From: an uncultured Oscillospiraceae bacterium | GTDB taxonomy: Bacteria > Bacillota_A > Clostridia > Oscillospirales > Oscillospiraceae | Length of the DNA stretch: 9,172 nucleotides | Reading direction: 5' to 3' | Assembly (NCBI GenBank): GCA_910579155.1 | Contig: CAJTTS010000117.1 | Span: 1-9,172 of the forward strand | In this document: positions 1-9,172 of the stretch, in pieces | Numbering within the stretch: the first letter of the stretch is position 1 | Layout: every line of letters starts with the position of its first letter | The notes under the pieces: model-generated | The model's input: the letters and a program-made list of their open reading frames with translations, nothing else | Told to the model about the DNA's origin: nothing | Databases searched by the model: none | Made by a program: the position numbers and the translations under genes

Positions 1-1
1 A

Positions 2-193
2 GGCTCCGAAAAGCCTTGTATTTGCGGTTTTCCTAATTTATATGGCCCTTATGTGAGCACGGTAGGACGAAATCGGCGCGCAATCGAACAGTATATCCGA
101 AATCAGCTACAAGAAGATATTTCAGCAGATCAAATGAGTATATCGGAGTACATCGACCCGTTTACGGGTAAGCCGGTAAAAGAAGGCAAGTAA
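2..193 (+). CDS. 3' end of an unrecognised protein gene (partial)
   Basis: An open frame runs from the left edge to a TAA at 191-193 and gives 63 C-terminal residues. I do not recognise the family. Visible features are a Cys-x-Cys-Gly cluster near the window edge (KPCICGF), a basic helix-like stretch with RNRRAIEQYIRNQL, and an acidic/polar tail ending EYIDPFTGKPVKEGK. It is the only likely plus-strand gene and it converges on the HipA-like remnant. Its GC content (about 44% by hand count over 1-180) is clearly lower than the uronate operon, which fits a separate origin, probably a mobile or accessory element. The real start lies outside the window. That this frame is coding rests on its length, natural-looking composition and clean stop; it could be chance, but I think it is real. 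Confidence 0.5.
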   Translation, partial: GSEKPCICGFPNLYGPYVSTVGRNRRAIEQYIRNQLQEDISADQMSISEYIDPFTGKPVKEGK

Positions 194-196
194 ATA

Positions 197-210
197 GCCC
201 CTTTAGGGGC
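197..210. repeat. Short hairpin just after the plus-strand stop codon
   Basis: GCCCC-TTTA-GGGGC forms a perfect five-base-pair stem with a four-base loop, starting four bases after the TAA of the partial plus-strand gene. Position and GC content suggest a transcription terminator for that gene, but no T-run follows, so it would be weak. Its right arm also takes part in the larger inverted repeat at 206-279, so the two structures compete. Confidence 0.45.
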
Positions 211-279
211 ATGCCCGGGAAATCTGCGCGATTGGCAGACTTTTCGACGAGCCTATAGGCTCTGCCCGGGACATGCCCC
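206..279. repeat. Long-range inverted repeat, 14/15 bp arms
   Basis: GGGGCATGCCCGGG at 206-219 is repeated in reverse complement as CCCGGGACATGCCCC at 265-279, with one extra base in the second arm. The arms enclose about 45 bases. These include a perfect 14-bp palindrome GAGCCTATAGGCTC at 249-262, so the whole could fold as a branched cruciform. This resembles recognition sites of DNA-processing enzymes more than a simple terminator. Confidence 0.6.
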
Positions 280-294
280 AAGGGGGCCTGTGCA

Positions 295-317
295 AACCAC
301 CGGCACGGCCGGTGGTT
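295..317. repeat. Perfect 10-bp stem hairpin with 3-base loop
   Basis: AACCACCGGC, loop ACG, GCCGGTGGTT: a perfect ten-base-pair stem with a minimal loop. It is followed by TATGATTGCGTTT rather than a T-run, so it is a poor intrinsic terminator on the plus strand. On the minus strand the flank after the stem (TGCACAGG) is not T-rich either. A DNA-level role such as a protein site or extruded hairpin is as likely as termination. Confidence 0.55.
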
Positions 318-431
318 ATGATTGCGTTTATGGAGTCTGCTTCTTCTTCCGGAGGCCTCTCGGTTTCGAGGTGGGCTTGCGTTCCACCCCGTTACGGAAG
401 TGGGTACGCTCAAACCTCTCAAAGAAAACCA

Positions 432-473
432 ATAATCCGAACCCATCCCCTATCGGAAAAAGGTTCGGATTAT
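432..473. repeat. Perfect 12-bp inverted repeat around an 18-base loop
   Basis: ATAATCCGAACC at 432-443 is exactly the reverse complement of GGTTCGGATTAT at 462-473, with 18 bases between. The arms can be extended outward (CCA/TGG) past a one-base bulge. The long loop and AT-containing arms differ from a terminator. The form is common at transfer-origin hairpins and recombinase sites, but I recognise no specific family. Confidence 0.6.
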
Positions 474-505
474 ATGGGTTTGGCTTGTCACTACGAAATC
501 ACTAT

Positions 506-540
506 TTTCGGAAAGCGTTGCGGCACAACGAATTCCGAAA
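506..540. repeat. Nested inverted repeat (possible oriT-type hairpin)
   Basis: TTTCGGAA (506-513) pairs with TTCCGAAA (533-540). Inside it CGTTG (516-520) pairs with CAACG (526-530) around the loop CGGCA, separated from the outer stem only by a two-by-two internal loop. The result is one long hairpin of 13 base pairs in two blocks. It lies about 40 bases beyond the stop of the HipA-like remnant, with no T-run. Relaxase recognition hairpins next to nic sites look like this, but no mobilisation gene is in the window to support it. Confidence 0.45.
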
Positions 541-581
541 GCTGAGAGAGCCATTCGGTGTGGCTTTTGGGTCGAGTCGGA

Positions 582-1196
582 CTACATTCCAAGTCTCGGA
601 CCATCAAACCGGTGTTTTCTGCTTTCCATAAGCTGTGCCATGCCGCAGTCGATAATTTGTTCCTTACGCTCCCGAATCATGACTTCGTAAAAATCCTGTT
701 GTACCGGAAGCAGCCCCGGCGTCTGCCGGATGAGCGCTCCGATCTGCTCCATATCAATCCTGGCGGAAATCCGTTCCAAAGCCTGGTTGCAATCCTCATT
801 CTGCAGCGACGCGATGAAGCGGGGGTATGATATCTTTGCTCCGCCATTCATAATCGCGGAGGTGGGATATTCGTAGATGCGCCGTTTGATCTCCCTTTCA
901 TCATCCAGCACGGCCTGCATTTCGTGGGCCCCAAGCTGCGGGTACAGACAGGAGCCGCAGTCATAAACTGGGGCGATCTCCGCTGCTTGGTTTTCCTCGT
1001 CTACCAGGATACCCCAGTTGCCATTGTGACGGTCAAAGTTTCCCAGCAGCGCGTCTGCGATGAACATATCCCAAAAGTGCGCCTTGAGCTGTCCGGCAGG
1101 GATAAGCGTCTGTTCCTCAATGGCCTGCAGGATATCGCGCAGGTCTGTGCCATAGCCGCTCTGTTCGCTGTTGATGCAGGCGTTTTTCATCAGATA
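582..1196 (-). pseudogene. HipA-like Ser/Thr kinase, C-terminal fragment (5' end lost)
   Basis: About 204 codons ending in TAG at 582-584 encode the C-terminal part of a HipA-domain (CtkA-type, PI3/4-kinase-like fold) protein kinase. The HRD-like catalytic motif GNFDRHNGNW is at fragment residues 52-61, and the DFG-like metal-binding motif VYDCGSCL follows about 26 residues later. The family is about 300 residues long, so roughly the first third, including the N-lobe and ATP-binding loop, is missing. Upstream of the YLMKNAC segment the same frame turns into low-quality sequence antisense in character to GH2 (runs of Thr, Trp and Arg), so the coding part starts at about 1196. HipA homologues are toxin kinases, often on mobile elements; here the protein should be inactive. 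The identity is well supported by the two motifs; the substrate is unknown. Confidence 0.75.
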
Positions 1197-2613
1197 GGCC
1201 CAGGCAAATGTCGGGGTGTTCGGCATGGAACCTGTCCAGCCAGGGCCCGTTGTCCTCCATCTTGCCGCCGTACCAGCCGAAGTAGTGGTTGTAGCTCTCC
1301 ACATCGGTGATCTTGTGCATGGGCCCATCGGTGGGGGTCATGGACAGGTGGGCGATGGTGGTCAACCGGGTGGGGTCCAACTCTTTTGCCAGCTTGTTCA
1401 GCTCGTGGTGGTTCTCTACCAGCTTGTCCGAGATGCCTCCAATCAAAATCTCATTGGAGATGCCCCAGAAGCAGATGGAGGGGTGGTTGTAATTCTGGAC
1501 AATCAGCTCTTTGAGTTGGGTGACGCAATTGTCGTGGGCGGCGGGGTCCTTGTTGAACACGCTGATGAAGGGGATCTCCGCCCAGACGATGAAACCCATC
1601 TGATCGCAGGCGTCATAGAAGTCCTGGGAGTGCTGGTAATGGGCCAGCCGGATGGTGTTAGCGCCCAGTTCCTTGATGATCCGAGCATCCTCGAAGTGGT
1701 CTTCTCGGGTGAGGGCGTTGCCCTGGTAGAGCTTGTCCTGGTGACGGCTCACACCCCGGAGCGGCGTCTCCACACCGTTGAGGATAAAACCCTTCTGGGG
1801 GTCACAGGAGAAGTCCCGCACACCCGCCTGGACCGTCACCTCGTCATACGCCTCGTTCCGGCGCTGGAGGGTGGCAGTGACAGTGTAAAGGTAGGGGGCG
1901 TCGATGCTCCAGCAGCGTGCATCGGGAATCGCAACAGTCACCTTGGTGTTGTCTGTGGGCCGGACGGCGGAAGCCACCTCGTACCCTTCGGCATCCCGGA
2001 TGGAGTACAGAACGGTGAAGTTCTCGTCTGGATCAGTCACCCAGCTCTCCAGCTCGAATTTCGCGCCGCCGCACCCGTCGCAGTGCCGAGGCGTCACCCG
2101 TAGGCCGGGGCCGCCATAGTAGTCCAGGTCAAAGTGGGTGGCGGACACACTGATAAGGTTTACTCCCCGGTACAGGCCGCCGTAGAAGGTGAAGTCGGCA
2201 GACTGGGGGTACACGCTGTCTTTGGGAGAGTTGTCACAGGCCACCGCCAACAGGTTCTCGCCGTCCTCTTTACACAGCTCGGTGACATCGGCCCGGAAAA
2301 TGGAATAGCCACCCTCGTGATAGACGGCCTTTTTGCCGTTGACGTACACCGTTGCCTGCTGGCCCGCCGCCAGCACCTCCACATAGACCCGCCCGCCGGG
2401 CAGGGGCTGTTTAGGGGTGGGAAAGGTCTTGGCGTACCAACACTTTCCCCGGTAATAGCAGCCGTTGCCATCCATGCCGTCTACCGCGTTCCAGGTGTGG
2501 GGCAGGTCCACGGTCATCCAGTCCTTTTTCCAATCCTCCGGCAGAGTATCCGGTAATCCGATGTCCTCACGGATAAATTTCCAACCCTGATTCAAATTGA
2601 TTACGTCGCGCAT
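1117..2613 (-). CDS. GH2 family beta-glycosidase, 3'-truncated and fused to out-of-frame HipA sequence (probable pseudogene)
   Basis: Glycoside hydrolase family 2 enzyme, either beta-glucuronidase or beta-galactosidase type. The N-terminal sugar-binding jelly roll (about 5-165, with LPHTWNAVDGMDG and the wYrk-like segment near 55-65) is followed by the Ig-like domain (about 170-275). The TIM barrel starts at LRGVSRHQDKLYQGNALTR (about 287-304). The acid/base Glu lies in WGISNEI (about 388). After CLGLS (about 470-474) the GH2 sequence stops exactly where SEYG with the nucleophile Glu is expected. About 24 residues read out of frame from the HipA fragment follow, then a stop. Full-length relatives are well over 550 residues. 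AGGAGG at 2621-2626 sits seven bases before the second ATG (2613) and only four before the first (2616), so I chose 2613. It is last in the uronate operon, 65 bases after the MATE gene. The product should be catalytically dead. Substrate specificity cannot be settled because the C-terminal specificity motif is gone. Confidence 0.85.
   Translation of the reverse strand: MRDVINLNQGWKFIREDIGLPDTLPEDWKKDWMTVDLPHTWNAVDGMDGNGCYYRGKCWYAKTFPTPKQPLPGGRVYVEVLAAGQQATVYVNGKKAVYHEGGYSIFRADVTELCKEDGENLLAVACDNSPKDSVYPQSADFTFYGGLYRGVNLISVSATHFDLDYYGGPGLRVTPRHCDGCGGAKFELESWVTDPDENFTVLYSIRDAEGYEVASAVRPTDNTKVTVAIPDARCWSIDAPYLYTVTATLQRRNEAYDEVTVQAGVRDFSCDPQKGFILNGVETPLRGVSRHQDKLYQGNALTREDHFEDARIIKELGANTIRLAHYQHSQDFYDACDQMGFIVWAEIPFISVFNKDPAAHDNCVTQLKELIVQNYNHPSICFWGISNEILIGGISDKLVENHHELNKLAKELDPTRLTTIAHLSMTPTDGPMHKITDVESYNHYFGWYGGKMEDNGPWLDRFHAEHPDICLGLSDEKRLHQQRTERLWHRPARYPAGH
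1189..1200. other. Rearrangement junction between GH2 and HipA-like genes
   Basis: On the minus strand, GH2 homology runs to the Ser codon at 1192-1194 and HipA-like homology is visible from the Tyr codon at 1194-1196 in another frame. The two genes therefore overlap by only a few bases, centred on the bases reading CTATCTGATG. This fits an illegitimate or short-homology deletion or insertion. It could also be a chimeric contig join, which the sequence alone cannot exclude. Confidence 0.75.
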
Positions 2614-2678
2614 CATGCTGCCTCCTAGTCAAAAAATTTCGTTCAGCACCCCTCATGACAAGCCGCAGAGGGGCGGAG

Positions 2679-4052
2679 TTATTTGCTGAGGGTGTCTGGT
2701 TTGGTTTTCAGAATTTTCGGGAACTGGGTAAAAAATACGATGCTCGTGATGGTAACCGCCAGCACGTCCGCCACCGGCTCCGCCAAAAAGACCGCAAACA
2801 CCTTGTCGTTCAAGAACAGCGGCAGAATAAAAATCATCGGAATGAGCAGGATGATTTTCCGCAACAGGGCAAGGAACAGGGATACCTTTGCCTGTCCCAA
2901 GGCCACGAAGGTCTGCTGGCAGGCAAACTGAATACCAATGAGGAAGAAGGCCGCCAAGTAAATGCGCAATGCCCAGGTGGTGATCTCCACCAGCTCCGGC
3001 TTGTTGTTGAACATACCCACGAATACCTGGGGAAAGAGCATGATGAGTCCCCACATACACACGGCATAAACCAGGCTGCTGACGATCAGGATGCGGAAAG
3101 CTTGCCGTACTCGGTCCATCTTACCCGCCCCGTAGTTGAAGCCAACGATGGGCTGAGTTCCCTGGGCCAGCCCCATGAATACCATGGAGAGAACCTGCAT
3201 GATGGAGGAACAGATGGTCGTGGCGCCCACCGCCGGGTCTCCGCCATATCGGTACAGGGAGGAGGTAAAGGATACGGTGACCAAGCTTTCTGTAGACTGC
3301 ATGATGAAGGGAGACACACCCAGCGACACGACCGGGAAAATGACCGAACGTTTCAGCCGGAAATAGCGAAGCTGGAGCTTTAACTTTGTTCGCTTACCCA
3401 GGAGGAACACCGCGACCCAAGCTGCGGACAAGCCTTGAGCGATGACAGTAGCCAGGGCCGCGCCCCGCACCCCCATATTCAGGCCGAAGATGAAGATAGG
3501 GTCCAAAACGATGTTCACCGCCGCTCCCACCAGGACGGTAGCCATGGAAATAGTGGAGAATCCCTGGATGGTGATGAAATTGTTCATGCCCAGGGCGATT
3601 TGGACGAAGATGCTGCCCCACAGGTAGATGCCCAGATAGCTGACGGCGTAGCCAATGGTATTTGGACTGGCACCGAACAGATAGAGCAGGGGTTCTTTTA
3701 TAAGCTGAAATAGAATGGTGGAGCTCACAGACAATAACAGCATGAGGGCGGCGCAGTTGCCCAGAATTTCGTTGGCCCCTTCCATATCACCATCACCCAT
3801 TGATATGGAGGCGCGGGAACCGCCTCCGATGCCCACCAGCGCCGCCATGGCGGAGATGAACATGATGATCGCAAAACACAGGCCCAAACCTGTGAGCGCG
3901 AGGTCACCCACCTCGGGGATGTGACCAATGTAGATGCGGTCCACGATGTTGTAAAGCACATTGACCAGTTGGGCGATGATGGCTGGAAAAGCCAGCCGGA
4001 CCACGAGCCGTCCCACGCTGTCATTGCCCAGGTCATTACTTCTTTTAGACAA
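2679..4052 (-). CDS. MATE family multidrug/cation efflux transporter
   Basis: Integral membrane antiporter of the multidrug and toxic compound extrusion family, which exports cationic drugs or metabolites using Na+ or H+. The 457 residues match the usual 440-480 and contain about 12 hydrophobic segments in two similar halves. Typical signatures are YNIVDRIYIGHIP near 34-46, the NIVLDPIFIFGLNMGVRGAA segment near 180-199 closing the first half, and GLAQGTQPIVGFNYGAG near 294-310 in the second. The start is TTG at 4050-4052, preceded by GGGAG at 4063-4067 with ten bases between; no in-frame ATG is close. It begins 20 bases after the yhcH stop, so it belongs to the same transcript. An exporter is unexpected among uronate catabolic genes. 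It may excrete a toxic sugar acid or an aglycone, or be unrelated. The family call is firm; the substrate is unknown. Confidence 0.9.
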   Translation of the reverse strand: MSKRSNDLGNDSVGRLVVRLAFPAIIAQLVNVLYNIVDRIYIGHIPEVGDLALTGLGLCFAIIMFISAMAALVGIGGGSRASISMGDGDMEGANEILGNCAALMLLLSVSSTILFQLIKEPLLYLFGASPNTIGYAVSYLGIYLWGSIFVQIALGMNNFITIQGFSTISMATVLVGAAVNIVLDPIFIFGLNMGVRGAALATVIAQGLSAAWVAVFLLGKRTKLKLQLRYFRLKRSVIFPVVSLGVSPFIMQSTESLVTVSFTSSLYRYGGDPAVGATTICSSIMQVLSMVFMGLAQGTQPIVGFNYGAGKMDRVRQAFRILIVSSLVYAVCMWGLIMLFPQVFVGMFNNKPELVEITTWALRIYLAAFFLIGIQFACQQTFVALGQAKVSLFLALLRKIILLIPMIFILPLFLNDKVFAVFLAEPVADVLAVTITSIVFFTQFPKILKTKPDTLSK

Positions 4053-4072
4053 AACGTAATCTCTCCCCTACA

Positions 4073-4549
4073 CTATGTTGAACAAAGCAGGCTTTGCTTT
4101 ATTTTTGCCACCGCTTTCCTGACGCTGCAGGGAGTGCCGGCCACACAGCCGGGGCGGTGGATGCTGTTGGAAAAGAAAATGCAGTAACCGCCGGGAGCAA
4201 CGTCAACAAAATTTTCGTCCTTCAAATCCTTATATATTACGATATCCTTATCCTGCATATCCCATTGTACGGTTTCACGTCCAGTATAAGGCTCATAGCC
4301 CATTCTCTCAATGCCAGATACGACATACTGGATATCTAAATAATCGTTGTGCCGTTCCGGATGACACTCCTCCGCAGGCTTGGTCGTAATATCTTGGACA
4401 TTCACGTACAGGTCCCGCCCTTGAAGCTCATAAGTCCCCGGTTCCATATTGGCAACATCACGGCTGGCGATCCATTCCAAAGCAGTTTGGATGGCCGCTG
4501 GGTATTGACAGGGGCAGCCTATCGCTAATGAGGAGGAAAAAATCATCAT
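4073..4549 (-). CDS. YhcH/YjgK/YiaL (DUF386) family protein, possible sugar-acid anomerase
   Basis: A 158-residue cytoplasmic cupin-like protein of the YhcH/YjgK/YiaL family, the usual length. The conserved block is clear: AEECHPERHNDYLDIQYVVSG (59-79), holding the putative metal-binding Glu/His residues, followed by the hydrophobic strand GGYCIFFSNSIHRPG (120-134) with the second conserved His (131). E. coli YhcH is known as the N-acetylneuraminate anomerase NanQ, and other members sit in sugar-acid operons. Here the neighbours suggest work on an uronate or its unsaturated derivative; that is inference. The first ATG (4549) overlaps the TGA of the upstream gene in the arrangement ATGA, and GGAGG at 4557-4561 lies seven bases before it, so translation is coupled to the lectin-like gene. 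An EbgC-like role as a glycosidase subunit is less likely but not excluded. Confidence 0.85.
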   Translation of the reverse strand: MMIFSSSLAIGCPCQYPAAIQTALEWIASRDVANMEPGTYELQGRDLYVNVQDITTKPAEECHPERHNDYLDIQYVVSGIERMGYEPYTGRETVQWDMQDKDIVIYKDLKDENFVDVAPGGYCIFFSNSIHRPGCVAGTPCSVRKAVAKIKQSLLCST

Positions 4550-5379
4550 TTACCATCCTCCAGCCCAGCATTCCTTCCGAACGCCTCAATTTGAGTGAGG
4601 GCAGGGAAAAGGGAAGGGTCATCCGCCTTGATCAGCTCCCCCACCTTCAGCCAGGTAATGCCTTTGCGCCGGATTGGGAACCTTTGAGGCTCGATACACT
4701 TATCCAGTTTTACAACCTCCGATGTACCGTCAGAGAAGGTCACCGTCCCCTGGGTCCACCAGCTGTCGTGGGGGAAGTCGGCCCGGGTGGTCAGCCGCAG
4801 CTCCTCCAGGTCCACCGGGCGTCCAAATTCCAGCGTGATTTCGGCGTCCGCCCGCTGGTCGATGCCCCAGGATTGGAAGGGCCAAGGGTAGTGGCAGGTG
4901 TTGGCCAGCACCCCGTCGATCACGTTCCGGGCTGCAAACAGCGGGGCGACGGGCCCCTTGGTCTCCGCGTTGGCGTGGACGTGTGGATAACAGCCCACGT
5001 CGTCTTGCTGATCCATCACATTTTTGGCAAGGTTGCGGTAGTTTTTGTCCTCCTCCGGGCGCGATCTCCGCATGGTGATATAGTGCTGCGCCCCGCTGAA
5101 GCTCCCGGAGCAATAGGATATGCGGTCCAGTTTCATGTATTCGTTGCGCTCAAAGGGAATGGCGTATTCCACCTGTTTCTGGGTAAGGAATACATACGCC
5201 TCGTCCATGGCCCCATCCACCCGAATGACGTAGAAAGCTGGAACCTCGTCGGTGGTAAAGATAATCTTGTCCCCCGGCTCATATTCTTTGGGGTACACCA
5301 ACAGGATTTCATTCTCGCCGCGTATCCAATATTCAATTTCTCCACGGGCGTTTTGCACGCCAATACTCAAATTTGCCAT
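4546..5379 (-). CDS. Cytoplasmic lectin-like protein with C-terminal F5/8 type C (discoidin)-like domain
   Basis: A 277-residue protein of unknown function. The N-terminal half (about 1-105) looks like an all-beta domain (alternating hydrophobic strands, GDKIIFTTDEVPAFYVIR, IPFERNEY). A linker follows with the conserved-looking NYRNLAKN (113-120) and YPHVHANAETKG (131-142). The C-terminal half (about 147-268) has the run AARNVIDG, WGIDQRADAEITLEFGRPVD, RADFPHDSWW, TVTFSDGT and ALTQIEAFG, which matches the discoidin/carbohydrate-binding galactose-binding fold. There is no signal peptide or transmembrane segment, so it should stay in the cytoplasm, unusual for a carbohydrate-binding module protein. 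I chose the ATG at 5377-5379 because AGGAG at 5388-5392 is eight bases upstream; the longer frame to 5409 would start inside the terminator hairpin. It lies 73 bases after dhuI and overlaps yhcH by four bases. A role with unsaturated uronates is inferred from context only. Confidence 0.75.
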   Translation of the reverse strand: MANLSIGVQNARGEIEYWIRGENEILLVYPKEYEPGDKIIFTTDEVPAFYVIRVDGAMDEAYVFLTQKQVEYAIPFERNEYMKLDRISYCSGSFSGAQHYITMRRSRPEEDKNYRNLAKNVMDQQDDVGCYPHVHANAETKGPVAPLFAARNVIDGVLANTCHYPWPFQSWGIDQRADAEITLEFGRPVDLEELRLTTRADFPHDSWWTQGTVTFSDGTSEVVKLDKCIEPQRFPIRRKGITWLKVGELIKADDPSLFPALTQIEAFGRNAGLEDGK

Positions 5380-5407
5380 TATCCCATCTCCTAACCGAAA
5401 TATATTC

Positions 5408-5441
5408 AAAATCCCCGATACCGTCCGATATCGGGGATTTT
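5408..5441 (-). terminator. Hairpin terminator or attenuator after the RpiB-like isomerase gene
   Basis: AAAATCCCCGATA at 5408-5420 is the exact reverse complement of TATCGGGGATTTT at 5429-5441, giving a 13-bp perfect stem with an eight-base loop. Read on the minus strand it begins 11 bases after the isomerase stop and ends in TTTT, a plausible but short-tailed intrinsic terminator; the A/T ends make it usable in both directions. The next start codon is only 29 bases further on, so it may attenuate rather than fully stop transcription. Confidence 0.75.
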
Positions 5442-5452
5442 GATTTGCGAGC

Positions 5453-6088
5453 TTACAGCAGTCCCTTCACAAAGTCCGCGATGGCCTGGTCCTTGCAGTT
5501 GGTAAAGAACAGCTCCTGAAAGCGCTCTCCCGCCACTGCGCCTTTCACCAGCTCCTGGTCAATGTCCTTCAGCCCGTCCACCAGGGGCCGCAGGGTCTTG
5601 GCCCGTACCTCGTCCAAAATTCGCTTGTTGCGCATCTCAGGCTCCAACCGTTCGGGGGGATAGCCCTGGCCGTGGCCGAATCCAAACAGCTTCTCAAAGA
5701 CGTACTCCAAATTCAGCTCGCCACCCCAGCCAAAGCCCTTGGCGAACGGCATGGCCACGGCGTTGCCGTCGTTGACATGGGCGAAGGTGTAGGCGTCCAC
5801 CGGATCCTCCACGTGGCCACAGATAACACCGGGGAAGCTGTTCATTGCCAGCATGGCGCCCTCTCCGGTGCCGCAGCCGGTGATCACGAAGTCCGCCGCC
5901 CCGCTGTTGAGCAGGATGGCCCCCAGGATGCCGCATTGGACATAGGTGAGCTGTGCCTTGTCGTCTGCGGCGTACATCCCGTAGTTGTCCACAGTGTGGC
6001 CCATGGGCTCCACCACTTTTTTCAATGCCGCCAGGATGATGCCGTTTTTAGCCGCTTGGCTGTTCTCATTGATGAGCGCGATTTTCAT
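5453..6088 (-). CDS. dhuI: RpiB/LacA/LacB-family isomerase, DhuI-like (DHU ketol-isomerase)
   Basis: A 211-residue sugar isomerase of the RpiB/LacAB family. The family core is visible: the N-terminal MKIALINENSQA strand-loop, ADFVITGCGTGEGAMLAMN (65-83) with the Cys at 72, and the substrate loop FAHVNDGNAV (102-111). Ordinary RpiB proteins are about 150 residues; this one has roughly 60 extra C-terminal residues, as in the streptococcal isomerase DhuI. DhuI converts 4-deoxy-L-threo-5-hexosulose uronate, the product of unsaturated glucuronyl hydrolase, to 3-deoxy-D-glycero-2,5-hexodiulosonate. The adjacent SDR and GH88 genes strongly support this rather than ribose or galactose 6-phosphate isomerisation. 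Two in-frame ATGs exist; GGGAG at 6097-6101 is eight bases from the second (6088) but only two from the first (6094), so I chose 6088. The family is certain; the DhuI assignment is by context and length. Confidence 0.85.
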   Translation of the reverse strand: MKIALINENSQAAKNGIILAALKKVVEPMGHTVDNYGMYAADDKAQLTYVQCGILGAILLNSGAADFVITGCGTGEGAMLAMNSFPGVICGHVEDPVDAYTFAHVNDGNAVAMPFAKGFGWGGELNLEYVFEKLFGFGHGQGYPPERLEPEMRNKRILDEVRAKTLRPLVDGLKDIDQELVKGAVAGERFQELFFTNCKDQAIADFVKGLL

Positions 6089-6109
6089 ACACATTACTCC
6101 CTTTTACAG

Positions 6110-6141
6110 GCGGGCGGCTGTCCGGTGGGACAGCCGCCCGC
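6110..6141 (-). promoter_or_regulatory. GC-rich intercistronic hairpin between dhuD and dhuI
   Basis: GCGGGCGGCTGTCC at 6110-6123 pairs perfectly with 6128-6141 around a four-base loop, a 14-bp very GC-rich stem. On the minus strand it starts nine bases after the SDR stop and is followed by TGTAAAAGGGAG, the isomerase ribosome site, not by a T-run. It is therefore more likely an mRNA-stabilising or 3'-exonuclease-blocking element, or a modulator of isomerase translation, than a terminator. Confidence 0.6.
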
Positions 6142-6149
6142 GCCAATTT

Positions 6150-6944
6150 TCAAGAGGGCTGCTTGCCGATGTAGGCCAGGATGCCGCCGTCCACATAGAG
6201 GATGTGGCCGTTCACGAAGTCGCTGGCCTCGGAGGCCAGGAACACGGCAGGCCCGCCCAGGTCTGCGGCCTCACCCCAGCGGTTAGCGGGGGTCTTGGCC
6301 AGGATAAACTGGTCGAAGGGGTGCTTGGAGCCGTCGGGCTGGACCTCCCGCAGAGGCGCGGTCTGGGGGGTAGCGATGTAGCCTGGGCCGATGCCGTTGC
6401 ACTGGATGTTGTACTGGCCGTACTCGCTGGCGATGTTCTTCGTCAGCATCTTCAATCCACCCTTAGCGGCGGCGTAGGCGGAAACCGTCTCCCGGCCCAG
6501 CTCGCTCATCATGGAGCAGATGTTGATGATCTTGCCGCCGCCCTTGCGGATCATGGAGGGGATGACGGCCTTGGACACGATGAAGGGGGCGTTCAGGTCC
6601 ACGTCGATGACCTGGCGGAAATCCTTGGCAGACATCTCCACCATGGGGATGCGCTTGATGATGCCGGCATTGTTCACCAGGATGTCGATGACGCCCACCT
6701 CGGCCTCAATTTTGGATACGGTCTCGTTCACTGCCTCCTCATTGGTCACGTCGCAGACATAGCCGTGGGCCTTGATGCCCTTCTCGGCATATGCGGCCAG
6801 CCCCTTATCCACCAGTTCCTGCTTAATGTCGTTGAACACGATGGTGGCCCCCGCTTCCGCCATGGCGCTGGCGATGGCGAAGCCGATTCCGTAGGACGCG
6901 CCGGTGACCAGCGCTACTTTACCAGTCAAACTAAACTTGATCAT
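6150..6944 (-). CDS. dhuD: SDR-family dehydrogenase, DhuD/KduD-like (2-keto-3-deoxygluconate-forming)
   Basis: A 264-residue classical short-chain dehydrogenase. The nucleotide-binding TGASYGIG is at 14-21, an acidic Asp at the end of strand 2 (VFND, 39) favours NAD(H) over NADP(H), NNAG is at 91-94, and the catalytic set is Ser144, Tyr157 and Lys161 (YAAAK), followed by GPGYIATP. The family includes gluconate 5-dehydrogenase, KduD and the streptococcal DhuD. Beside the RpiB-like isomerase and GH88 gene, the likely reaction is NADH-dependent reduction of 3-deoxy-D-glycero-2,5-hexodiulosonate to 2-keto-3-deoxy-D-gluconate in the cytosol. The ATG at 6944 has GGAGG at 6955-6959, ten bases upstream. 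The gene starts 53 bases after the symporter stop with no terminator between, and a GC hairpin separates it from the isomerase gene. Family certain; precise substrate inferred from neighbours. Confidence 0.88.
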   Translation of the reverse strand: MIKFSLTGKVALVTGASYGIGFAIASAMAEAGATIVFNDIKQELVDKGLAAYAEKGIKAHGYVCDVTNEEAVNETVSKIEAEVGVIDILVNNAGIIKRIPMVEMSAKDFRQVIDVDLNAPFIVSKAVIPSMIRKGGGKIINICSMMSELGRETVSAYAAAKGGLKMLTKNIASEYGQYNIQCNGIGPGYIATPQTAPLREVQPDGSKHPFDQFILAKTPANRWGEAADLGGPAVFLASEASDFVNGHILYVDGGILAYIGKQPS

Positions 6945-6997
6945 GTTGTATGTACCTCCATCATTCTATCCCCGCAGGGCCAAGGTGTCAAGATCAA

Positions 6998-8437
6998 TTA
7001 CTTCACCGCGTTTTCCGCCTTGACGGCGGCGATTTTCGCCTGCACCTCGACCATTTTTTCCTTATCCAGCGGATAGAACTTCATGGCCAGCAAAGAGCAG
7101 ACCCAGCCGATGATGGGAACGCCGATGAACATGAACATGGTAATCCCGAACATCGCGGAGGTCAGAGGATCTTCCACCGTGGGAAATCGATCCTTAAAGC
7201 CGATGGCAACTACACACCAGCCCACCACTGTGGCGGAGAAGGAGGATACCACCTTGTCAAAGAATCCAAACACTGTTCCCATCAGGACGGGGGCATAGCT
7301 GCCAGACTGATAGAGCTCGTAGTCGGCGCAGTCGGCGATCATGGGGGTAGCCAGGTTCATGGTGACCTGCCCGGAACCGGTGGTCAGGATATAGCAAGCA
7401 ATATAAGCAATGGTCATGAAACCAATATGCTCCAGAGAAATCTGAGAGGGGTCACCGAAGATTAGCAGCGAACCCAGCAGCGCGGTGAAGATAATACTGA
7501 TCCATGTGAAGACCACAGTAGCCTTTTTGGACGACATCCGAGCCGCGAAGCCAGTTCCCAAGGTGATGAGGATGAGGTTGGGTACCAGCACGATCATGGA
7601 CATTTTGCTCAGCATGGCGTAGTTGCCGATGATGATGCCGTATAGCATAATGCCTACCACAGAGTTGCCTCTGATCTGAGTGGCCAGCTTATCTGTGGAG
7701 GCGGCCACCACCAGCATTTGAATGGCCCGGTTGTTTTTGATGATGCGGAAAATGTCTTTGAAGCCGTAAGATGCCTTTGCGCCCAGCTTGGCGTAATTCT
7801 CCGCCTGGTCCTTTTCCCAAATCCCGATGATGGCCAGAATAGTGAATATCAGAGAGACAGGTCCCAGGGTGAGGATGGCTTCTTTAAACAGTCCGCTGGT
7901 GAAGCCGCCATGCTTGCTGGTCAGATAGCTGGTCATGTAGACAACAAGACCGGTCTGGAGGGCGGCGTTGACGAAGCCGTCAATACGGGCGAATATGGGG
8001 CGCTGTTTGGGGTCGTTGGTCAGCACCGTTTGTCCCCCGCGGGTGGCGCTGTTCTGGAACGAATAGCCAATGATGTAGACCAGGTAGATCAGCACCCAAT
8101 AGATCCCGCGGAACCCCTCGGGCATCAGGTGCGTTGTAGTGAACATCAGGATCACGGTGCCCAGCATTATGAGATTTCCCAGCAGCATGAAGGGTCGAAA
8201 TTTTCCGAACTTGCCGTTGGTTTTGTCCACCACAAAGCCAATGATGGGATCGGTGACGCCGTCCCAGAATCGGGCGGCCATCATAACGTTGGATACGAAC
8301 AGCACAGCCAGACCGGCCACGTTGCCCGCATAAAGATTTACAAACGTCATGATCAGCAAGTAGACGTTAGAGGCAGTGTTGTTAAGAACAAAGAACCCAA
8401 GCTGCCACCATTTCGCACGGTTATATTGTTGTTCCAT
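6998..8437 (-). CDS. GPH-family (MelB/UidB-type) cation:glycoside symporter
   Basis: A 479-residue inner-membrane transporter of the glycoside-pentoside-hexuronide:cation symporter family (major facilitator superfamily fold), with about 12 hydrophobic segments. The family signature RFWDGVTDPIIGFVVDKT lies at 56-73. The two Asp residues at 59 and 63 have the same spacing as the sodium-binding pair Asp55/Asp59 of Salmonella MelB, followed by GKFGKFRPFML. It probably imports unsaturated di- or oligosaccharides, or glucuronides, for the adjacent GH88 enzyme; this is inference, since the family also carries other glycosides. Streptococcal GAG clusters with DhuI/DhuD use a PTS instead. I chose the ATG at 8437 because GAGGAG at 8445-8450 is seven bases upstream; the longer frame would run into the palindromes upstream. 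The C-terminus is a charged cytoplasmic tail (KEKMVEVQAKIAAVKAE). Confidence 0.9.
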   Translation of the reverse strand: MEQQYNRAKWWQLGFFVLNNTASNVYLLIMTFVNLYAGNVAGLAVLFVSNVMMAARFWDGVTDPIIGFVVDKTNGKFGKFRPFMLLGNLIMLGTVILMFTTTHLMPEGFRGIYWVLIYLVYIIGYSFQNSATRGGQTVLTNDPKQRPIFARIDGFVNAALQTGLVVYMTSYLTSKHGGFTSGLFKEAILTLGPVSLIFTILAIIGIWEKDQAENYAKLGAKASYGFKDIFRIIKNNRAIQMLVVAASTDKLATQIRGNSVVGIMLYGIIIGNYAMLSKMSMIVLVPNLILITLGTGFAARMSSKKATVVFTWISIIFTALLGSLLIFGDPSQISLEHIGFMTIAYIACYILTTGSGQVTMNLATPMIADCADYELYQSGSYAPVLMGTVFGFFDKVVSSFSATVVGWCVVAIGFKDRFPTVEDPLTSAMFGITMFMFIGVPIIGWVCSLLAMKFYPLDKEKMVEVQAKIAAVKAENAVK

Positions 8438-8463
8438 TGTGGTTCTCCTCTCGTGTTTAATCC

Positions 8464-8491
8464 CTTTTCCCGGCCCATGGGCCGGGAAAAG
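8464..8491 (-). promoter_or_regulatory. 28-bp perfect palindrome upstream of the symporter gene
   Basis: A perfect palindrome with its centre in CCCATGGG and outer arms CTTTTCCCGG/CCGGGAAAAG. On the minus strand it lies in the ugl-symporter gap, 14 bases before the GAGGAG ribosome site. As RNA it would fold into a stem of about 12 base pairs with a CATG loop, followed by GGATTAAAC rather than Ts. It shares the segment at 8485-8491 with the next palindrome, so only one of the two can form fully at a time. Confidence 0.65.
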
Positions 8492-8508
8492 CCCAATTGG
8501 GCTTTTCC
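8485..8508 (-). terminator. 24-bp palindrome directly after the GH88 stop codon
   Basis: A perfect palindrome centred on CCCAATTGGG, with arms GGAAAAG and CTTTTCC. On the minus strand it begins three bases after the ugl TAA and its 3' arm contains TTTT, so it resembles a weak intrinsic terminator or a 3'-end stabiliser. It overlaps the 28-bp palindrome by seven bases, and the two stems are mutually exclusive. Confidence 0.5.
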
Positions 8509-8511
8509 AAC

Positions 8512-9172
8512 TTACCATTCAAACAACGCTTTTCCCTTCAGACGCAGAATGGCTTCGATGAAATAGTAGTCCGCATAAATAATCGGAATCTCGGTATTTT
8601 GTCCAGTTGGATCATGGTAGAAGAACGTACCGCCATCCACGATGGAGTCCTTCTCCGGGTCCCAGTTGGCAAACTTCTCGTCGCAGGCCCGCAGGATGCG
8701 GTAGGCCGCTTCAGTGTAGAATCGGGCCTCGTTCTCGTCAACATGGCTGGCGATCTCCAGCAAGCCGCAGACGGTGATCATGGCGGCTGTAGAATCGTAT
8801 TTGACCGGTTCTGCTGGGGCGCGGTAGTCCACCACAGGCAGCCAATCGCTCACCGCCATGTTTGCGATGCAATAATGAGCACACTGCTTCGCAGTATCCA
8901 AGAACGCTTTGTCCCCCGTATGGTGGTAGCTTCGGGCAAAGCCATATACGGCCCAGGACTGTCCACGGCTCCAAGAAGAACCCACGCCAAAGCCCTGCCC
9001 CCCGGGGCTATTCAAAAATTCCCCGGTCTCCTGGTCAAAGGCCGCAATGTGGTTGCAGCTTCCATCCGGGCGGACAATATACTGTTGTGCCGTTTTGGCG
9101 TGGCTGACCGCGATCTTTCTAAGAGCCTGTTTAAAATCTTTTGACAAAAATGGCGGAGTGGGAGATAATAGG
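8512..9172 (-). CDS. ugl: Unsaturated glucuronyl hydrolase, GH88 (5' end outside window)
   Basis: C-terminal 219 residues of a GH88 enzyme of about 370-400 residues; the frame stays open to the right edge, so the start is beyond the window. The TTG at 9145-9147 is probably internal. GH88 removes the non-reducing-end 4,5-unsaturated uronate from lyase-generated oligosaccharides by hydrating the double bond, usually in the cytoplasm. Seen here, counting from the TTG codon: RPDGSCNH (26-33), GGQGFGVGSSWSRGQSW (49-65), YDSTAA (117-122) and the tail IIYADYYFIEAILRLKG. His33, Gln51, Trp59, Arg61 and Trp65 have the same spacing as His193, Gln211, Trp219, Arg221 and Trp225 of the Bacillus sp. GL1 enzyme (numbering from memory). 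The catalytic Asp149 equivalent would fall just past the edge. It is the first visible gene of the operon, 74 bases ahead of the symporter gene. Confidence 0.9.
   Translation of the reverse strand, partial: LLSPTPPFLSKDFKQALRKIAVSHAKTAQQYIVRPDGSCNHIAAFDQETGEFLNSPGGQGFGVGSSWSRGQSWAVYGFARSYHHTGDKAFLDTAKQCAHYCIANMAVSDWLPVVDYRAPAEPVKYDSTAAMITVCGLLEIASHVDENEARFYTEAAYRILRACDEKFANWDPEKDSIVDGGTFFYHDPTGQNTEIPIIYADYYFIEAILRLKGKALFEW

Follow-up and report, generated by a model that had tools for sequence, protein, structure and literature searches.

In a 9,172-nucleotide contig of an uncultured Oscillospiraceae bacterium (CAJTTS010000117.1 of assembly GCA_910579155.1; here called the window), the GH2 β-glucuronidase-type gene of a uronate-type operon is cut at its expected nucleophile codon and joined, in a different frame, to internal sequence of a CtkA/HipA-like kinase gene. 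As the original prediction had it, the two genes break off at a common point, GH2 homology running from position 1190 and kinase homology to position 1189 (Table 1). We consider it probable that this join is real and that it arose by non-homologous deletion or rearrangement between the GH2 gene and mobile, defence-type DNA.

Table 1. Features of the window, with positions counted from its first base.
Feature	Position	Strand	Remarks
Mobile-element terminus	1..49		Neighbours a ParB_N gene in G206; here lies within a transposase gene, apparently inserted at a TA
IS200/IS605 transposase gene, 3' end (to 193), and right end of the element	50..323	+	L086, 96% over window 49-323
162-nt dispersed repeat	322..483		Many related genomes; 91% in G001, 92% in G190
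CtkA/HipA-like kinase gene, 3' part	582..1189	-	Residues ~107-307 of 307; N-terminal third absent
GH2-frame run-on through kinase DNA, foreign frame	1117..1189	-	Join lies within the codon of residue 477 (Asp); stop after a further 22 residues
GH2/kinase flush join	1189..1190		Placed by BLASTN starts and the identical kinase stretch
GH2 β-glucuronidase-type gene, 5' part	1190..2616	-	Residues 1-476 and the first two bases of codon 477; terminal gene of the uronate-type operon
Rest of operon	2679..9171	-	MATE transporter, YhcH-type DUF386, unknown, LacAB/RpiB-like isomerase, SDR, GPH sugar transporter, open-ended gene

The GH2 reading frame (1117-2616, minus strand) comprises 499 residues, of which residues 1 to 476 are homologous to the family and the other 23 are not. 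The Pfam GH2 N-terminal and middle domains are present, and the TIM barrel extends only to profile position 183 of 302; the score against NF050095 (BetGlucuronLacZ4) is 370, with a cut-off of 950. The best 80 of the 589 relatives found served as the comparison set. Homology to the window reaches residue 476 in 78 of these loci, and the matches of the other two (L070 and L072) run to their contig ends, short of the Glu codon. All 78 loci reaching the site encode Glu at this codon, 62 with GAG and 16 with GAA, and we take the Glu of this [ST]EYG motif (SEYG) to be the GH2 nucleophile. In the window, the last GH2 bases before the join are GA, the first two of the Glu codon; the codon at the aligned position reads GAT (Asp, residue 477), and alien residues follow, which bears out the proposed loss of the catalytic Glu. 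The GISNE motif, the Glu of which is presumably the acid/base, is retained in the translation. An active glycosidase of this kind needs a complete domain set and both Glu residues; here the barrel is incomplete, and of the two Glu residues only the presumed acid/base is found. Lacking the nucleophile and the remaining barrel, the GH2 product is very probably inactive.

Intact versions of the gene are found elsewhere. The best full-length relative listed, P0122 (760 aa), shows 90% identity over 95% of the 499-residue frame and carries DUF4982 after the barrel. Full length, i.e., a match to P0122 to residue 745 or beyond, was seen in 71 of the 80 loci; in seven the match is cut off by a contig end, and in two (L024 and L077) it stops at residues 683 and 679. 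None of the 78 loci reaching the window's site is broken there. Among 400 genomes of the family, 56 gave a strong GH2 match, and every match listed ends at residue 517 or later, except for one piece in G052 ending at 381. A breakpoint hotspot within GH2 genes was considered and dropped; two homologues, P0121 (513 aa) and P0228 (490 aa), had first looked truncated near the window's site. The tail of P0121 (90% identity) consists of GH2 sequence in another frame, pointing to an internal out-of-frame deletion, and judged by this tail P0121 is another broken allele of a relative. For the tail of P0228 there was no convincing match among the GH2 loci compared. The original prediction had also proposed that the strain lost the terminal glycosidase of its operon. 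This would hold if the join is real, and other GH2 genes could blunt the loss; an example of such an additional gene is the second GH2-type match in G001, the metagenome-assembled genome that holds the best GH2 locus of the 80 (L001, 82% at the nucleotide level).

On the kinase side, the frame from 1189 to 582 lies on the same strand as the GH2 gene and matches 307-residue proteins with up to 99% identity. Residues 1 to about 106 of the intact relative P0001 are absent, as is the start codon. The HipA_C domain (PF07804) is detected in the fragment with 30.9 bits (cut-off, 30.5), over profile positions 99 to 205 of 213 only; a complete kinase of this type would have the N-terminal part in addition. 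The partner had been described as HipA-like, and this assignment stands, its closest solved structure being CtkA. Judged from what is left of the reading frame, the kinase product is very probably inactive as well, without its N-terminal third.

The position of the join was defined from both sides. The GH2-side BLASTN match starts at 1190 in 43 of the 80 loci and earlier in none, and on the other side 377 nt (813-1189) are identical to contig C36 of G001, with no further identical base adjoining 1189. Because GH2 matches begin at 1190 and kinase identity stops at 1189, the two homologies meet without gap or overlap. The original prediction had placed them within two or three bases of each other and in different frames; the change of frame was found, and the spacing is in fact flush. 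Its further suggestion, joining through a short shared string, is not supported. No base at the join is common to both parents, and the flanking in-register identity is at or below chance, amounting to 2/10, 3/20, and 4/30 before the join and, against GH2 relatives, to 2 to 3 of 10 and 4 to 6 of 30 after it, the latter values being derived from 10 of the 80 loci, as the GH2 parent past the join is known only through its relatives. The longest word common to the flanks, ATTTGCC (7 nt), is out of register, and 7 nt or more were reached in 428 of 2,000 shuffles of the GH2 side. The hexamer CTGATG spans the join and has a second copy 19 nt upstream of the breakpoint in the kinase parent; a two-step event, i.e., a join plus a 15-nt deletion via CTGATG, is conceivable and is not the simplest parse. 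None of the five direct repeat families and four inverted pairs reported for window 1-2700 lies at the join.

These features bear on the possibility that the join is a library or assembly chimera, in which reads or molecules from two loci, of the same or of different organisms in one sample, were joined and both genes are intact in life. Assembler k-mer sizes lie far above 7 nt, and misjoins of the graph type need common words of such length; because these would require a shared word much longer than 7 nt, we lean toward a real join. The lack of a long common string counts against a misassembly of the repeat type, but not against a chimeric library molecule, which would look identical to a real join. 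There are no gap letters in the window to indicate a chimera; however, the window's first bases belong to a repeated mobile element, and metagenome contigs probably often start in this way. In addition, the kinase piece recurs with 100% identity in G001, whose operon is only 82% similar, and could thus belong to a different organism in the sample, and the fused frame was seen nowhere else in the loci and proteins searched. Both halves nevertheless point to G001, which carries the best GH2 locus of the 80 and is the only one of six genomes picked for their GH2 in which the kinase gene is present. Taken together, a chimera has to be regarded as a serious possibility, to which we give less than even weight.

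A functional fused or overlapping gene pair was also considered. Past the join, the GH2 frame remains open for about 23 codons, and upstream of it the kinase frame does so for about 46, but the two frames differ, the GH2 loci are full length apart from those nine that meet a contig end or stop at residues 679 and 683, and the junction region gave no scored match; we regard such a pair as scarcely credible. Specifically, a search with GH2 residues 460 to 499, in a database that shows cluster representatives only, returned three candidates, none with an E value of ≤10, and the junction 30-mer was absent from the viral contigs searched. A fused frame conserved as a protein in relatives, which by the original prediction would have refuted it, was not seen among the 80 GH2 loci, in the 400 family genomes, or in the search with residues 460 to 499.

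With respect to the origin of the kinase DNA, a copy with 100% identity was found only in G001 among the matches listed for 400 family, 394 order, and 42 genus genomes, sets that overlap and were all drawn round G001; being centred on G001, these wider searches, and likewise the phylum search below, add little to the link as evidence against a chimera. Note that G001 is metagenome assembled, and its kinase and GH2 contigs need not share one organism. The other DNA matches listed for the kinase region were at 68 to 80% and mostly short, and strong protein matches were obtained in 5 of 348 genomes of the phylum, including G001, the other four with 64 to 78% identity to P0010. The G001 copy continues straight through the window's breakpoint and is itself cut at residue 231/232 (L082:1501-2229, contig C36), where DUF2971 (PADLOC PDC-S31) and then DUF4062 follow; its 242-residue product is identical to P0029, which is listed on 11 contigs. 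The kinase gene being cut in G001 also, with the identical P0029 on 11 contigs, it therefore rearranges elsewhere too, and, with the PDC-M03A and CtkA matches of the intact protein, it appears to belong to rearranging DNA of the defence type. The identity of this DNA next to operon DNA differing by about 18% suggests that the kinase DNA moved recently. Among plasmids, a single record was matched by window 1-1230, with the IS part only; relatives of P0001 in phages reached 65.1% identity or less (6 records), those of P0010 in plasmids were under 60% (5 records), and one viral contig matched at 59 to 71%. A further kinase-gene fragment, comprising residues 96 to 190 only, was seen in L132 (G1132:C54), with unlike sequence on both sides and a contig end 120 nt upstream.

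Among the 120 kinase homologues listed of 4,480 found, three (P0012, P0018, and P0080) have alien N-terminal residues, and in two of them, P0012 and P0018, homology is lost no more than two residues away from where the window's kinase sequence breaks off. CtkA-type genes might accordingly be prone to repeated breakage at this spot, or a mobile or site-specific unit might end there, so that the point would not be random. We consider this very unlikely: n is 3, the breakpoint of the third protein is near residue 88, the alien part of P0018 amounts to only two or three residues, the contig with P0012 measures 882 nt, the breaks in both are known at the protein level alone, the G001 copy is intact through this point, and no repeat pair was reported at the join. 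It is just as improbable that CtkA-type (PDC-M03A) genes have a preferred breakpoint near residue 106 that is reused as defence-type islands recombine, the window representing one event that captured the GH2 active-site codon. Two of three kinases with an alien N terminus breaking here are a small oddity, too few for a hotspot.

The left flank of the window consists of mobile-element debris. The terminus is found with 100% identity over window 1-51 in L113 and with 94% in L115 (G206), and a Y1_Tnp domain is present in the full-length transposase gene of the L086 copy. A second chimera at 49/50 was ruled out, this being the end of a mobile element in a transposase gene; G206 (L115) has the terminus directly next to an IS200-type transposase gene, at the equivalent position. 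The dispersed repeat holds a 12-nt perfect inverted repeat (432-443/462-473), its part from about 422 to 483 is shared with six phage records (Faecalibacterium phage FP_Toutatis for two of them), and a short dispersed stretch (484-530) is found in three genomes. No RNA families or tRNAs were detected in the window. The operon reads, on the minus strand, open-ended gene (all Pfam matches below cut-off), GPH transporter, SDR (gluconate 5-dehydrogenase-like), RpiB-like isomerase, unknown, DUF386, MATE, and GH2. Between DUF386 and GH2, L001 has a remnant of a MATE gene (1820-1930; 37 residues with 73% identity to the window MATE) where the window has the full gene (2679-4052). A frame located about 260 nt 3' of GH2 in L001 matched 112 plasmid records (68 mobilizable, 35 conjugative, and 9 non-mobilizable), 111 of them with <60% identity. 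Of five loci inspected on the 3' side of GH2, only L001 has plasmid-type DNA there, and L002, L003, L004, and L018 have other genes; mobile DNA 3' of the operon is plausible by this comparison, and it is not general.

If the join is real, an illegitimate deletion or rearrangement would have connected the GH2 gene, at its expected nucleophile codon, to the interior of a kinase gene that would have lain 3' of the operon, within mobile DNA of the defence type. One deletion spanning the 3' end of the GH2 gene and the 5' end of the kinase gene would give exactly this join; a single deletion suffices because both genes lie on the same strand, which has a one-in-two chance in any case. The flush ends, the mobile-element left flank, the plasmid-type frame in L001, the 377-nt kinase identity to G001, and the separate cut in the G001 kinase gene support a real deletion. 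None of the loci read showed the presumed ancestral order, GH2 followed by a kinase island. A real join would add another gut strain whose glucuronidase-type gene is dead and whose kinase gene is a remnant and, unless the G001 bin is mixed, would show identical kinase DNA adjoining much more divergent operon DNA. Neither of the frames at 582-2616 merits annotation as a functional enzyme.

Among known systems, the window's GH2 residues 1 to 476 align with β-glucuronidases of the PDB 6mvf type; among NCBIfam models, NF050095 comes closest. Intact P0122 gave 1,186 bits with 6mvf_A across residues 31 to 758. In contrast to these enzymes, the window copy stops where the nucleophile codon is expected and lacks the rest of the barrel and all later domains. 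For the kinase, intact P0001 matches CtkA (PDB 3akj) over residues 2 to 294 (E value, 1.8e-90), and the fragment retains the stretches NFDRHNGNWG and APVYDCG of HipA-like kinases, which we take to have catalytic roles. In a PADLOC comparison made with intact P0001, the candidate defence model PDC-M03A was matched (E value, 9.3e-26). A PDC-M03 system comprises a complete A component and a partner gene; in the window the former is a fragment and the HTH gene is absent, whereas in G001 an HTH_26 gene precedes the kinase. In the paper library searched, there was no mention of "PDC-M03", nor of CtkA, HipA, and kinase together in one paper. Deletion junctions formed by illegitimate recombination between pseudogenes beside mobile DNA are a general, known kind. 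The window join differs from them in being known from one contig, with the ancestral arrangement not seen in the loci read, and shares with them the flush non-homologous join, the two truncated genes, and the mobile-element flank; as a deletion, the event is of an ordinary kind.
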